Source: Halorhabdus rudnickae
Lineage (GTDB): Archaea > Halobacteriota > Halobacteria > Halobacteriales > Haloarculaceae
Reading direction: 5' to 3'
DNA: 64,000 nt
Assembly: GCF_900880625.1 (NCBI RefSeq)
Contig: NZ_CAAHFB010000004.1
Coordinates: 62,001 to 126,000 of the forward strand
Shown here: piece by piece, positions 4,191 to 63,816 of the stretch
Numbering within the stretch: the first letter of the stretch is position 1
Layout of the letters: each line of letters opens with the position of its first letter
Notes under the pieces: generated by a model
The model's database searches: none
What the model was told of the DNA's origin: nothing
What the model saw: only the letters and a program-made list of their open reading frames with translations
Program-made: the position numbers and the translations under genes

Positions 4191-4544
4191 CAGGCTAGAT
4201 ATCCCGGCTCGAATAGTGATAATAGTTATGCTGTTTCTTTCCTTTTAAGTAGGGGCAATGACTTAAAAGATCACGACCGCTTCTATCTCTCTTGATCCGT
4301 GGAAAAAGCCGGTATAGAGAGCCACGGTCATAAATTTCTACTTGAATAATTTGAATTAAATATGGCCGTTCGATTCTGCGGGTTCTCGGTTTCTGCTCGA
4401 CATCAAGAGCAGGTCTGTCCTCCTGTCGAACACAACCGGCTATAGGCTGCCGTATAAGACGTGATTCCCTCCGGTGGCGACCGGTGGGGTGGGCAGTAGG
4501 ATGGCGAATGTTATATAAGATTTCAGCATAAAAAAGGTACCACG
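4191..4544. promoter_or_regulatory. Divergent intergenic region between nucleoside importer and uridine phosphorylase
   Basis: 354 nt without a convincing gene. It is AT-rich compared with its flanks. It holds the strong TATA box of the uridine phosphorylase gene at its right end. Toward the importer a weaker AT-rich element, seen on the minus strand as CTATTATC, lies roughly 30 nt before the ATG at 4190. A reading frame across 4195-4569 on the minus strand has no protein-like composition and overlaps the promoter, so I did not annotate it. Confidence 0.6.
4511..4519 (+). promoter_or_regulatory. TATA box of the uridine phosphorylase gene
   Basis: TTATATAAG ends 25 nt before the ATG at 4545. 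That is the spacing expected for a leaderless or nearly leaderless haloarchaeal transcript. Confidence 0.7.
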
Positions 4545-5363
4545 ATGCCTGGAGACAGTGAAGATCCAAACGAAACCGAACAGTATCACCTCGCCGTGGC
4601 CCCCGAGGACGTGGCGGAGACAGTCTTGCTCCCTGGGAACCCGGAGCGCATCGAGAAGATCGTGCGGTTCTGGGACGAGCACGAGGAGAAGGCCCACCAC
4701 CGCGAGTACCGAACCGTCACAGGAACCTACGATGAGGCCCCGATCTCCGTGACTTCGACCGGGATCGGTGGTCCCGGTGCGGCCATTGCGGTCGAGGAAC
4801 TCGCCCGCGTCGGCGTGGACACGTTCATCCGCGTCGGTTCGTGTGGCTCGATCCGTGAGGAGGTTTCCGTCGGCGACCTCGTGATCACGACCGGCGCGGT
4901 CCGCCAGGAAGGGACCAGCAAGGAGTACGTCCGAGAGGACTATCCCGCGACTGCCGACCACGAAGTCGTCTCCGCGCTCGCGGCCGCGGCCGAACGCCTC
5001 GACTACAACTACCACCTCGGCACGACCCTGAGCGCGGACAGTTTCTATCCCGGTCAGGGTCGCCCCGGTTTCGAAGACTTCGAGGCTCCCGGCTCGGATC
5101 GGCTCGTCGAGGATCTCCGGGAGGTCAACGTCACGAACATCGAGATGGAGGCGAGTGCAATCTTGACGATTGCCAACGTCTACGGCCTGCGGGCGGGCGC
5201 GGTCTGTGCCGTCTACGCCAATCGCGTGACCGGCGAGTTCCGGACCGAGAGCGACCAGCGCGCCTCGGAAGTCGCCTCCCTGGCCACGAAGCTCCTCGCG
5301 CGTATGGACGAAGTAAAGGCCGAGGCCGGCGTCGACCACTGGCACCCAGGCCTGGAACTGTAA
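4545..5363 (+). CDS. udp: Uridine/nucleoside phosphorylase (PNP/UDP family)
   Basis: 272 aa, the usual length of Udp. Seen: 'VLLPGNPERIEKI' (phosphate-binding loop region), 'VTSTGIGGPGAAIAVEEL', 'FIRVGSCGSIREEVSVGD', and 'NIEMEASAILTIANVYGLRAG', which carries the ribose-binding Met-Glu pair. The enzyme cleaves uridine (or another nucleoside) with phosphate to the base and ribose-1-phosphate in the cytoplasm. It is divergent from a nucleoside importer and 24 nt upstream of a phosphosugar mutase, which supports salvage or catabolism of imported nucleosides. Which nucleoside it prefers cannot be read from the sequence. Confidence 0.9.
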   Translation: MPGDSEDPNETEQYHLAVAPEDVAETVLLPGNPERIEKIVRFWDEHEEKAHHREYRTVTGTYDEAPISVTSTGIGGPGAAIAVEELARVGVDTFIRVGSCGSIREEVSVGDLVITTGAVRQEGTSKEYVREDYPATADHEVVSALAAAAERLDYNYHLGTTLSADSFYPGQGRPGFEDFEAPGSDRLVEDLREVNVTNIEMEASAILTIANVYGLRAGAVCAVYANRVTGEFRTESDQRASEVASLATKLLARMDEVKAEAGVDHWHPGLEL

Positions 5364-59673: not shown

Positions 59674-59988
59674 TCACTCGAACGTAACCGCGGTCCCGTA
59701 GGCGATGACCTCCGAGCCGCCGTTGGCGATCTCGGAACTCTCTAGGCGAACGTTGACGACTGCGTCGGCTCCCATCGAGCGGGCGTCGTCGGCCATCCGC
59801 TGCATGGCCTCGTCGCGAGCGTCGGTCAACAACTCGGAGTAGGCTTTCAACTCCCCGCCAGTGATATTGCGGATACTTTGGGTGATGTCACGCCCGACGT
59901 TGCGGGCCTTGACCGTGTTTCCGCGGGCGATACCGAGCGCTTCGTCGATCTCTTCTCCTGGGACTGTTTCGGTCGTGACGAACTCCAT
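59674..59988 (-). CDS. UPF0145/YbjQ-family protein
   Basis: 104 aa, full length for the family. Begins MEFVTTETVPGEEIDEALG, then the hallmark 'GNTVKARNVGRDITQSIRNI', 'GELKAYSELLTDARDEAMQR' and a final 'ADAVVNVRLESSEIANGGSE'. The family forms small beta-rich pentamers sometimes called heavy-metal-binding; function is not established. The first 49 nt of this gene region recur at 61681-61729. Confidence 0.92.
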   Translation of the reverse strand: MEFVTTETVPGEEIDEALGIARGNTVKARNVGRDITQSIRNITGGELKAYSELLTDARDEAMQRMADDARSMGADAVVNVRLESSEIANGGSEVIAYGTAVTFE

Positions 59989-59989
59989 A
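59941..59989 (-). repeat. 49-nt direct repeat, copy 1 (5' end of the UPF0145 gene)
   Basis: Matches 61681-61729 at 44 of 49 positions, same orientation. The similarity stops at the start codon and after codon 16. The two copies are 1740 nt apart and bracket the three-gene cassette. Confidence 0.85.
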
Positions 59990-60191: not shown

Positions 60192-60677
60192 ATGATGCAG
60201 TTCAACAGAAGAACAATGTTGAAAAGCTGTGGTACCGCAATCACGGGTTTCGGTGTCCTTATGGGGGGCGCAAAAGCAAAATCCGGGGCCCTGAACCCAC
60301 AAATCGTTAAGGGAACAGCCGACAAGCCGATTCAGGAAAACCAAATCCAACGCGTACGGGAGACAATACGGAAAAAACTCTCATCAAATACGAGTTCCGT
60401 ATCGGAGATTGCCGTATCGGGTAATCCGGTACCGACCGACGGCAAATTGGTTGGATACGGAATCGCAGTCGAAAACGGGGCTCCGATTGAAGTTATAAAA
60501 TGTATAAATGATCCCGTAGACAAAGAGCAAAATAAGAAGAGTGTTTCATCCCAGCAGCGGAAGGCGTTGCAGAAGAAGATACCTGAGAAAGCAAAATCCA
60601 TCGGTGTAGAAGACCGGGTAAAATGGGCCCATCGTGATCTCGATAAATTCCGTCGAAAACACGAAGGGGGTGTGTGA
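60192..60677 (+). CDS. Tat-exported protein of unknown function (cassette gene 1)
   Basis: 161 aa from the ATG at 60192 (MMQFNRRTMLKSCGTAITGF); a GTG at 60180 would add four residues. The N-terminus is a twin-arginine signal (NRRTMLK) with cleavage probably after AKA near residues 28-30. There is no lipobox cysteine in the usual place. The mature part is rich in Lys ('KKIPEKAKSIGVEDRVKWAH'), which is unusual for a haloarchaeal protein. Low GC. No family recognised. The stop overlaps or abuts the start of the next gene, so the two are translated together. Confidence 0.7.
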   Translation: MMQFNRRTMLKSCGTAITGFGVLMGGAKAKSGALNPQIVKGTADKPIQENQIQRVRETIRKKLSSNTSSVSEIAVSGNPVPTDGKLVGYGIAVENGAPIEVIKCINDPVDKEQNKKSVSSQQRKALQKKIPEKAKSIGVEDRVKWAHRDLDKFRRKHEGGV

Positions 60678-60679
60678 TC

Positions 60680-61363
60680 ATGCCAGAACCATCTTGGACT
60701 CGTATTGGGACGATCAGCACAGATAAGCGGGCTTCCACCACAGTTGCTGGAGCGACGCTTGACTTTGGATTGACCGATCTTTATGTTGAAATGTATAAGG
60801 TCGAAAATGACAATCGTACCGGAGAAACTAATTATGCTTGTATCCCTCAAGTCAAACAGTGGCCCGGGAAGAAATTAGACGATGCATTCGATGCTCCGAA
60901 TATGGAAACCAGAGTAGTTCAAGACTGGTCTCAGAACGACTACGGTGATCTTGAGATCACTGATTGGGGGCCAACAGAGCCGAAGCAAGGAAGTTTAGAT
61001 TGGTCGATGAGCGTTTCTGCAGGCGCGGATGGTGCCGGCGGAAGTATCTCCGCGTCTTACGACACACCATACATTCGAAGGGAAATCACCGCTGATTACA
61101 ACGAAACAGTGGCTCACAAGTATACGTACCCGAGCAGTATCGATCCGGTTGATCCGGAAGCCAAAAATAAAGTAGTAGATATAGAAAGTATTGGTGAAGC
61201 TTGGTTGGATGATGAGTCCCAGACTGACGAGGACGATGATTCATGCGATGCCTTCCCAGATATACTGACTATGGAAGTAACATCGAAATTTGGCGGTGAT
61301 AGCTGTGGTGGAGAAACAGCATCATTGGAGATAGAACAGCCAGTGGATAGTCTCTTTTTATAA
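60680..61363 (+). CDS. Protein of unknown function (cassette gene 2)
   Basis: 227 aa from the ATG at 60680; a GTG at 60674 overlaps the upstream stop by 4 nt and is an alternative. No signal peptide or membrane helix. Seen: 'TTVAGATLDFGLTDLYVEMY', an acidic beta-rich middle (LDWSMSVSAGADGAGGSISA) and two cysteines near the C-terminus (CDAFPDIL, SCGG). It looks like a compact beta-rich domain followed by an acidic tail. No family recognised. It is sandwiched between a Tat-exported protein and a two-helix membrane protein. Confidence 0.65.
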   Translation: MPEPSWTRIGTISTDKRASTTVAGATLDFGLTDLYVEMYKVENDNRTGETNYACIPQVKQWPGKKLDDAFDAPNMETRVVQDWSQNDYGDLEITDWGPTEPKQGSLDWSMSVSAGADGAGGSISASYDTPYIRREITADYNETVAHKYTYPSSIDPVDPEAKNKVVDIESIGEAWLDDESQTDEDDDSCDAFPDILTMEVTSKFGGDSCGGETASLEIEQPVDSLFL

Positions 61364-61364
61364 G

Positions 61365-61583
61365 ATGTGGAACTGGAAGGCCGATTTCCGGAAAATGGCG
61401 CTGACGCTAAGTTTTTACTTATTGTTTGCCGCGATCTTTCTTTCTCTCGAAGACGCGCCACCCGATTGGGCATGGCTATCGTTTTTGGCGAGTTTCGCCA
61501 TCCTGGTATTCGCATTACTGTTCCGGTACGATCCGGAGAAATACAGTCAGCCAGCCGATCAGGGCCGTAATGAGCCAGACTGA
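61365..61583 (+). CDS. Small two-helix membrane protein (cassette gene 3)
   Basis: 72 aa. Two membrane segments, 'MALTLSFYLLFAAIFLSL' and 'WLSFLASFAILVFALLF', joined by an acidic EDAPPDW loop; the C-terminus is polar. The ATG comes one base after the stop of gene 2. Small membrane proteins in this position sometimes serve as immunity or export partners, but nothing in the sequence proves that. No family recognised. Confidence 0.6.
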   Translation: MWNWKADFRKMALTLSFYLLFAAIFLSLEDAPPDWAWLSFLASFAILVFALLFRYDPEKYSQPADQGRNEPD

Positions 61584-61593
61584 CCCCACAAAA

Positions 61594-61728
61594 TCAGAGG
61601 AACAGCGCCGGGATAGTCTGCCGGAAGATGTTCAGCGAGATCACGAACAGGAGCGCGATGACGAACCAGTTGAACCGCCGTTCGTCGATCTCTTCTCCGG
61701 AGACCGTCTCGGTTGTGACGAACTCCAT
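61594..61728 (-). CDS. Chimeric 44-aa ORF: UPF0145 start joined to a membrane helix
   Basis: Reads MEFVTTETVSGEEIDE (one substitution from the start of the UPF0145 protein) and then RRFNWFVIALLFVISLNIFR to QTIPALFL and a TGA. The last part is a single membrane helix. It may be a small gene created by duplication and fusion, or a truncated UPF0145 copy that reads into unrelated DNA by chance. It is convergent with the cassette, 10 nt from its end. Confidence 0.4.
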   Translation of the reverse strand: MEFVTTETVSGEEIDERRFNWFVIALLFVISLNIFRQTIPALFL

Positions 61729-61729
61729 A
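61681..61729 (-). repeat. 49-nt direct repeat, copy 2
   Basis: 44 of 49 positions match 59941-59989. Four of the five differences leave the encoded residue unchanged and one changes Pro to Ser, so the coding frame was kept after the duplication. Confidence 0.85.
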
Positions 61730-62030: not shown

Positions 62031-63816
62031 ATGAGCGCCTCGGAGATCGTCGAAATCGAATCCGATCGCGCTTCGAGTCGTCGACCTCGTCACTCTCGTC
62101 CGCCATCCCGTAGATTCCGCGAATCAGATGGCAGCAATGGCCGGATACGTGACGGACAATCCCGGAGTGGTGGGGAAGATCCCGAGCATGATGGCCGAGC
62201 AGGTCACACAGAAACAGCAAACACGTAACCCGTTTCTCGAGGACGACCACGAGTACGCGACGTTCCGGAATAGCTGGTATCTGGGATACGCGACTGGCTC
62301 GGGCATCTCGATGGTTATCGGAGACAAGGGATCAAGTGCCATCGTCGGTCGCCTTTCCTCGTCGAGCACGCGCATCGGACGTGCGATGCGGGCGCTGAAG
62401 GCCGCGAAAACGGGGCTGAAGGCAAGCGTCTCGACGAAGACGATGGCGCTCGTGGGTCGAGTCACGAAGAAAGCCCCCGACGTGGATATCGACACGGGCC
62501 AGATAGCCAACCGCTTGAGTGAGGTGTCTCAGCCCGTCCGCCATCGGACGACCAAGCAGTTGCGCGAGATGGATGCGGACACGTTGCGGTGGGTCTCTGA
62601 CAACGGGATCGTCTACAAATCCGCGTCGAAAGCCACACGCGTCGTGCGGGCGACCGGCAAGACCGGGCAACGAGCCCTCGAACAACTCGATGTGGATAGT
62701 CGCGCGGCGCTGTTGGAACTCTCCGAGCAGATCAAAACCGAGCGGGTGATCCTGCGCGCTTGGGAACGGGGCGAGATCGATACCAAGCAACTCGGGTCGC
62801 TGTTGCGCCGGTTCGATGGAATGAGCGGCGACGAACTGTCGATTTCGAAGGGGATCATCAGACGGAGTGACGACGAGGGAATTCAGCTCCTCTGCCGCGG
62901 TTCGGTCTGCAATAGCCCGTGTCGGCCCTTCGAGGAAGTGCTGGACGACATCGACAGCGCATCGCTGACGATCAGTGAGGACGATGTCACAGAATTGGGG
63001 ACGGTCCTCGCTAAGGAAAGCGAGGATGTCGATTACTCGGTTGACAATGCAGAAGCGCTGATCTCGGATATCGATTCGTTCGATCAGCTGGACCGGGCCG
63101 TCCGGAAGATCGACGACCTTGATGGCGCGGCCAGTCGCCAGGCATGAGACTTGGTCGAAGAGACGGGCGATGACAGGGTACACTTGCTCAATAAGGTGGC
63201 CGATGCCTCCCTGCAGAAGCTCTTAGACTGTGACGAAATCGAGACGGACGACTTCGTCGAAGCGACACGGAAGTACGCCGATATGGACTCGGTCAAACGG
63301 TCGCAGTTCCGGGAGTTGCTTGCGGATGATGACCTTCGGGACTCGTAGGTGAGTGACATAGGAAATACAAGTATCTCATTAGATAGCATTGAAGACGCTC
63401 TTGATAGGATCTGCCGTGTGGATATCCTGGAACGGCAATTACAACGTAAGTTCAAGCATACGGATGATTTCGGGGTGGCCGGGAACTGGAATAGTAATAA
63501 CAAAGAAGTATTCCAAAATCCCCTCACACGTCATATTGCAGATACAGCAACTCGATCAATCGACGGTACGTATCGTGGTAGGAATGTGACCTATCCTGAT
63601 AACTCTCAGACGGGTAATACCGTGATTGTCTCGACCGACGGTTGGAAATATAGATATTCTTACAATAATGCACAGGCAGTTGTCGATGCCAATTCCATCG
63701 GAATCGTCGGGGCGAGCCGATTTCGACTCATTCGCGGATTCTTTTCCTCGTTTAACTGGGGAATGGGCTCGGCTTGTACAATCGAAGGCGAGGTTCATCG
63801 CGTCTCAAGGTTGTAA
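62031..63816 (+). pseudogene. Decayed polymorphic-toxin-like gene with a colicin D-like C-terminal domain
   Basis: A start-like MSASEIVEIESD at 62031 is followed by a frameshift near 62050-62085. From there one frame runs to 63816, with stops TGA at 63145-63147 and TAG at 63346-63348. Its parts are a helical N-region ('VVDLVTLVRHPVDSANQMAA', 'YVTDNPGVVGKIPSMMAEQV', 'QLGSLLRRFDGMSGDELSIS'), a linker, and a C-terminal module from about 63439: LQRKFKHTDDFGVAGNWNSN, then a GTYRG block and GWKYRYSYNNAQAVV. The KFKH--DFGV-GN-N pattern with GTYRG resembles colicin D-type anticodon tRNases of polymorphic toxins, and the His in KFKH would be catalytic. The gene looks inactivated. Confidence 0.6.

Follow-up and report, generated by a model that had tools for sequence, protein, structure and literature searches.

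A three-gene cassette of Halorhabdus rudnickae as a candidate secreted, leukocidin-like toxin with an escort domain and a membrane immunity protein

Few archaeal protein weapons are known in molecular detail. Archaea have been reviewed as producers of pore-forming toxins (PMC9558359), archaea of the family Methanosarcinaceae are reported to carry aerolysin-like genes (PMC3110756), and HFX_0892 of Haloferax mediterranei is a protease-activated precursor whose N-terminal helices kill (PMC12893001). Among enzymes, a signal-less subunit is known to be carried out of the cytoplasm by its partner via twin-arginine translocation (Tat) (PMC10924467). Here we describe a cassette of three genes, A, B and C, in a stretch of 64,000 nucleotides (the window) from the haloarchaeon Halorhabdus rudnickae (contig NZ_CAAHFB010000004.1, positions 62,001 to 126,000, forward strand). 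We give about an even chance to the reading that the cassette encodes a secreted archaeal leukocidin-like pore-forming toxin (B), accompanied by an escort or pro-domain (A) and by an immunity protein in the membrane (C). No publication linking haloarchaea with leukocidins was found in a literature search of partial coverage. The features of the cassette, with lengths in amino acids (aa), are:

60192..60677, + strand: gene A, 161 aa, a Tat-signal protein and the N-terminal (pro/escort) half of the family, assigned by its RRTMLK motif and homology to the N-terminal half of fused relatives.
60192..60278, + strand: likely Tat signal peptide of A, residues 1-29, with probable cleavage after AKA, assigned by sequence and by the Tat signals of fused relatives.
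60680..61363, + strand: gene B, 227 aa, without a signal peptide and with a leukocidin-like predicted fold, assigned by structural matches and by presence in 46/391 Halobacteria.
60989..61069, + strand: amphipathic hairpin of B, residues about 104-130, a candidate membrane-inserting prestem, assigned by beta-moment, a low-confidence model and weak profile matches.
61365..61583, + strand: gene C, 72 aa, two membrane helices, a candidate immunity protein, assigned by purifying selection on homologues and enrichment of two-helix open reading frames (ORFs).

Members of the leukocidin/haemolysin superfamily (PF07968; alpha-haemolysin, gamma-haemolysin, NetB, CytK and VCC) resemble the A-B family in the predicted fold of B, in secretion and, for many A-B relatives, in an amphipathic hairpin that precedes a YxQP-type motif. 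The A-B family differs in being archaeal, in having no PF07968 match, in its extra N-terminal domain (sometimes a separate gene), and in its Tat export and membrane partner gene, and it is described here from genes and predicted models. The aerolysin-like proteins of Methanosarcinaceae are likewise archaeal and like beta-pore-formers, but are of the aerolysin rather than the leukocidin type; the A-B family has no Pfam aerolysin match, and the two are set apart by their descriptions. Halocins and HFX_0892 are also secreted haloarchaeal proteins, and antagonism of haloarchaea is the role proposed here, although HFX_0892, compared by description only, acts via an N-terminal helical peptide, unlike the toxin we propose. 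The halocin H4 gene was not seen at two loci (L091 and L092) that were near-matches from primer-derived searches. Tat hitchhiker pairs (Ni-Fe hydrogenases and formate dehydrogenases) share with A and B a signal on one partner, adjoining genes and a partner expected to fold in the cytoplasm. These pairs are redox enzymes, unlike A-B, for which a complex is presumed and whose relatives outside Halobacteria have non-Tat signals.

The signal of A is of the textbook twin-arginine type (NRRTMLKS...AKA). B starts 2 nt past the A stop, or at a GTG at 60674 that would give a 4-nt overlap with A, and C, with its two hydrophobic helices, starts 1 nt past the B stop. The G+C content of the cassette is 42-49%, versus ~62% in the surrounding DNA (left flank). 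A preliminary description of this DNA had spoken of three tightly coupled, AT-rich genes, and the 1-2 nt gaps and the composition agree with it. A contains 20 Lys, its mature form has a net charge of +9, and B has one of -30. We regard the arrangement as more than chance because the A-B-C order, with similar tight spacing, is conserved in three other genomes (loci L021, L022 and L023): it is intact between idsA and gltX in two congeners (G089 and G140), and lies at a different site in a member of another genus (G178). The source genome itself carries a decayed A-B-C paralogue, flanked by idsA (geranylgeranyl diphosphate synthase) and gltX, in which B is frameshifted.

The same description had called the cassette an orphan without recognisable families. 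The latter holds, as no family in Pfam, NCBIfam, PHROGs or PADLOC covers A, B, C or the scanned relatives; orphan status had to be rejected, since homologues are numerous and occur in the same genome, in congeners, in other Halobacteria and in other classes. A first scan of genome contigs with window B alone gave no match, and a search with C alone gave weak matches only. With a profile of B, the family was found in 46/391 Halobacteria genomes, including three of the seven in the genus (G000, G089 and G140), and strong matches appeared in other classes of the phylum (E down to 4e-44). Weak Pfam matches to B (HTH_43 and similar, E=0.016) were treated as chance because the cut-off was unmet and B is predicted to be all-beta. 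A defence system was rejected for want of a PADLOC match, and a virus origin was set aside, with no relative in one scan of viral contigs and weak, chance-level PHROGs matches.

Between G089 and G140, A and B are under purifying selection, with ratios of nonsynonymous to synonymous substitution (dN/dS) of 0.23 and 0.18 against an idsA yardstick of 0.14. C is under purifying selection too (proportions of nonsynonymous and synonymous differences, pN 0.28 versus pS 0.77) and diverges fastest of the three, faster than B. Selection of this kind on all three genes would also suit a housekeeping exported cell-envelope protein and its membrane anchor. The patchy presence of the family, for which we rejected a housekeeping role, the decayed paralogue, and the position of the cassette as a low-G+C insert in a hot spot make that explanation very improbable, and no housekeeping role of homologues was found. 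Window B is 50% identical to its counterpart in G178 versus 42-46% to the congeners' copies, and the window, G089, G140 and G178 copies form one supported clade in the tree; these sequence relationships suggest transfer. Two identical split A-B pairs with the same flanking genes, ~61 kb apart, were seen in another genome, G224 (L032:6458-7806 and L033:6200-7548), and may stem from a large duplication of recent date or from an error of assembly.

A and B are together at every inspected locus where both were found, mostly as a single protein, so that the separation of the genes which the preliminary description named as evidence against a module does not apply to this pair. A Tat-signal protein of about 340-440 aa carries both domains at L024, L028-L031, L034, L035, most of L048-L065, and L066-L073, and in most other Halobacteria with the family A-B is a single Tat-exported protein. 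The Tat motif is present in A and in most fused relatives, while relatives in other classes of the phylum are fused proteins whose signal peptide lacks twin arginines (non-Tat, Sec-like). Split pairs (the window, L021-L023, L026 and L032) are interspersed among the fused forms, and the tree requires three changes of state. As in Tat hitchhiker pairs, the signal stands on A alone and none on B, and the two are encoded as one protein elsewhere. A programmed frameshift joining them was considered, since B is in the -1 frame in adjoining split pairs, and was set aside, as no good slippery site was seen by eye and tight spacing dictates the frame.

The A domain has no meaningful relative in the PDB and looks like a signal-bearing pro/escort domain rather than an effector. 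The preliminary description had instead taken the Lys-rich secreted product as the effector. In one rival explanation, A would be an effector of the HFX_0892 kind, a precursor from which proteolysis after export frees a basic helical antimicrobial peptide, and B would be its carrier or immunity protein. The net charge of mature A in the window is unusual for a haloarchaeal exported protein, and a precursor with killing N-terminal helices has precedent (PMC12893001). The A half is, however, neutral or acidic in 23/26 fused relatives tabulated, and the congeners' split A has a net charge of -2. We judge a role of A as effector to be decidedly unlikely, and the toxin-like fold is predicted in B.

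The YxQP motif, which we take to be of leukocidin type, was the origin of the leukocidin idea, which was then tested by profile and structure searches. The AlphaFold model of window B is of very low confidence, with a predicted local distance difference test (pLDDT) of 36. When this low-confidence model, whose alignment contained neither toxin nor template, was searched with Foldseek, leukocidin-superfamily toxins filled ranks 1-43, 18 of them with E<=1e-3 (best 6.6e-5, probability 1.00). A fused relative, L072 of Haladaptatus pallidirubidus, was modelled from an alignment of eight fused relatives and window B, with no toxin or template. Its A domain was fairly well predicted (mostly pLDDT 63-92) and its B half poorly (mostly <50); this model, of low confidence in the B half, retrieved leukocidin-superfamily toxins at ranks 1-16 (best E 0.015). 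No competing fold appeared among the top structural matches of either low-confidence model.

Profile searches gave weaker matches to the same region. The best PDB match of one family profile (A5) was NetB, weak (E 0.21), over the hairpin and YxQP, and that of a profile of all B domains (A9) was 7y79, listed as 'Toxin', also weak (E 0.063), over the same hairpin. Across 32 relatives, the beta-moment of the hairpin peaks at residues 108-113 and 122-126, with the alternation that a barrel-forming segment should show in both strands, which span residues 106-115 and 118-127 in the low-confidence model of window B; the beta-moments of other strands of B are equal to or higher than those of the hairpin. 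No Leukocidin match was found among 32 members scanned with Pfam, nor in members from other classes. Membership of the sequence family (PF07968) was thus tested and not found, and it is from the modelled fold that we propose that B may work like a leukocidin. The matches of the all-B-domain profile to 7y79 and 7y78 (listed just as 'Toxin') over the hairpin, together with the aerolysin-like genes of archaeal Methanosarcinaceae, could instead point to B as a beta-pore-former of the aerolysin/ETX type, with similar action and an ancestry different from the leukocidin type. Yet we recognised no aerolysin-type entry among the 50 best structural matches for either model, and there was no aerolysin or ETX Pfam match; we consider such an origin unlikely.

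A small two-helix membrane protein, which the preliminary description had made part of the module, is a recurrent neighbour of A-B: such an ORF lies within 400 bp at 10/33 A-B loci versus 2/76 control genes of the same loci (Fisher p=9e-5), as counted from mechanical ORFs with a hydropathy threshold. These neighbours are mostly in the window's clade, and a two-helix ORF also lies directly downstream at one locus outside Halobacteria (L113). Six loci outside Halobacteria have a homologous gene, without a family name, directly downstream:

L105:3376-4125, L107:1256-1894, L108:3838-4566, L116:3095-3826, L117:3239-3904 and L119:1327-2046: membrane-anchored proteins of ~220-250 aa.

In another group of Halobacteria, PQQ-propeller or other lipoproteins adjoin the A-B relatives. 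Partners at the membrane or surface that vary around a secreted protein with a predicted toxin fold are what one would expect of a toxin and its immunity protein, a function that we infer. Related Tat lipoproteins of 154-159 aa lie beside A-B relatives in two genomes (L048:715-1194 and L027:9396-9860) and are a possible third kind of partner.

The cassette lies in a wider insertion between ybjQ and tauE, whose other features are:

59674..59988, - strand: ybjQ (PF01906), the left border of the insertion hot spot, which adjoins tauE in congeners.
61594..61702, - strand: scar, a duplicate of the tauE 3' end, 86% identical to the genome's own tauE and 91% to that of G269.
61681..61729, - strand: scar, a second copy of the ybjQ 5' end, 90% identical over 49 bp to 59941-59989.
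62128..63816, + strand: polymorphic-toxin relic, interrupted by two in-frame stops and with Colicin_D as its C-terminal domain, a hot-spot neighbour outside the cassette.

The intact tauE lies beyond the window, at the equivalent of 71409-72332 (L020:13410-14333). The ybjQ-tauE spacing is ~70-90 bp in three congeners and ~11.4 kb here, where the cassette, the tauE/ybjQ scar, the Colicin_D relic and further genes intervene. The tip of the relic (63349-63816) matches Colicin_D (E=4e-14), and the relic is 72% identical over 318 aa to a 2669-aa toxin-type ORF that adjoins ybjQ in G145 (L088:5308-13317); in G089 a partly masked ORF of 2511 aa lies between the two border genes (L084:1062-8597). Within the genus, this site is a hot spot of giant polymorphic-toxin ORFs, in agreement with the preliminary description, which had remarked on the neighbouring relic and proposed such a site. 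Polymorphic toxin loci, here the Colicin_D relic, share this hot spot with the cassette; A-B-C, by contrast, consists of separate genes, with no giant carrier protein or known toxin-tip domain. In G269, nothing but an orphan 65-aa two-helix membrane gene lies at the site (L085:1018-1215); it could be an immunity gene that outlasted a lost A-B, but with 17% identity to C we do not claim this. The scar (61594-61729) is a chimera in which the tauE 3' end and the ybjQ 5' end, their order swapped, meet at a stretch coding for EIDE that both share, and its tauE part is nearer G269 than the genome's own gene. At the border of the decayed paralogue lies a 129-bp duplicate of the idsA 3' end, at 94% (L004:7591-7719 vs 4463-4591), and both cassettes of the source genome thus adjoin duplicated ends of a neighbour gene.

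The toxin reading draws on the genes, their fusions, conservation and selection, the enriched membrane neighbours and the hot spot, and on a predicted fold of B; patchy presence, the decayed paralogue, the polymorphic-toxin hot spot and the faster divergence of C than B also count in its favour. Several points weigh against it. Both models are poor in their B part, and such matches can be meaningless; the template modelling (TM) scores of the leukocidin matches are low (up to 0.38); the two structure runs share most alignment rows and are not fully independent; and the leukocidin ranks stand without a comparison set of unrelated beta-rich proteins. At the sequence level, the PF07968 model matched in 0/20 genomes at E<=10, and broader family profiles yielded no PDB relative, the other profiles giving Tat-signal matches or nothing. 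The hairpin strands are short in some members and may not span a membrane, many fused members have no two-helix neighbour, and the non-Tat signals of relatives outside Halobacteria mean that a Tat escort is no general need. Activity, co-export and immunity are, moreover, what we infer.

A-B could instead be a secreted, non-toxic and strain-variable surface or matrix protein (a beta-sandwich adhesin or exopolymer-binding protein), with the leukocidin matches arising from low-confidence, beta-rich models. The very low pLDDT of window B, the lack of a significant sequence match to any toxin family, and the several relatives whose neighbours are lipoproteins or beta-propeller proteins instead of two-helix ones are consistent with this explanation. 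The models of two different proteins nevertheless retrieve leukocidins alone at the top, and not adhesins, and the enriched small membrane partners and the toxin hot spot are likewise at odds with it, so that we regard it as rather doubtful. Of the bacteriocin-like or conflict module envisaged in the preliminary description, what remains is a conserved, patchy, conflict-like cassette with a membrane partner in a toxin hot spot, without orphan status and without A as the effector.

If B is indeed a leukocidin-like toxin, A and B would fold in the cytoplasm, with A serving as pro-domain, chaperone and export escort carrying the Tat signal. In the split form, B, which has no signal of its own, would exit in a folded state while attached to A, by Tat 'hitchhiker' export. 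B, as a leukocidin-superfamily-like beta-sandwich, would then oligomerise in the membrane of a neighbour, where its amphipathic hairpin would swing out and join the hairpins of other subunits to form a membrane beta-barrel. In the membrane of the producer itself, C would obstruct the pore or keep it from assembling, and the targets would likely be other archaea in the same brine.

More generally, we tentatively suggest, as something less probable than not, that archaea own a large class of leukocidin-like pore-forming toxins, present in ~1/8 of the Halobacteria sampled and in other classes, that act against archaea, are accompanied by membrane-bound immunity proteins and are in some cases split with a Tat escort. 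If true, this widespread unnamed family with its candidate immunity partners would offer a testable mechanism of archaeon-archaeon killing, and would reveal how a beta-barrel pore deals with membranes made of ether lipids. The short list of co-exported pairs would gain a member that is not an enzyme if a split toxin does leave the cell as a Tat complex, and the family would bear on the origin of a toxin fold that has been seen chiefly in pathogenic bacteria.
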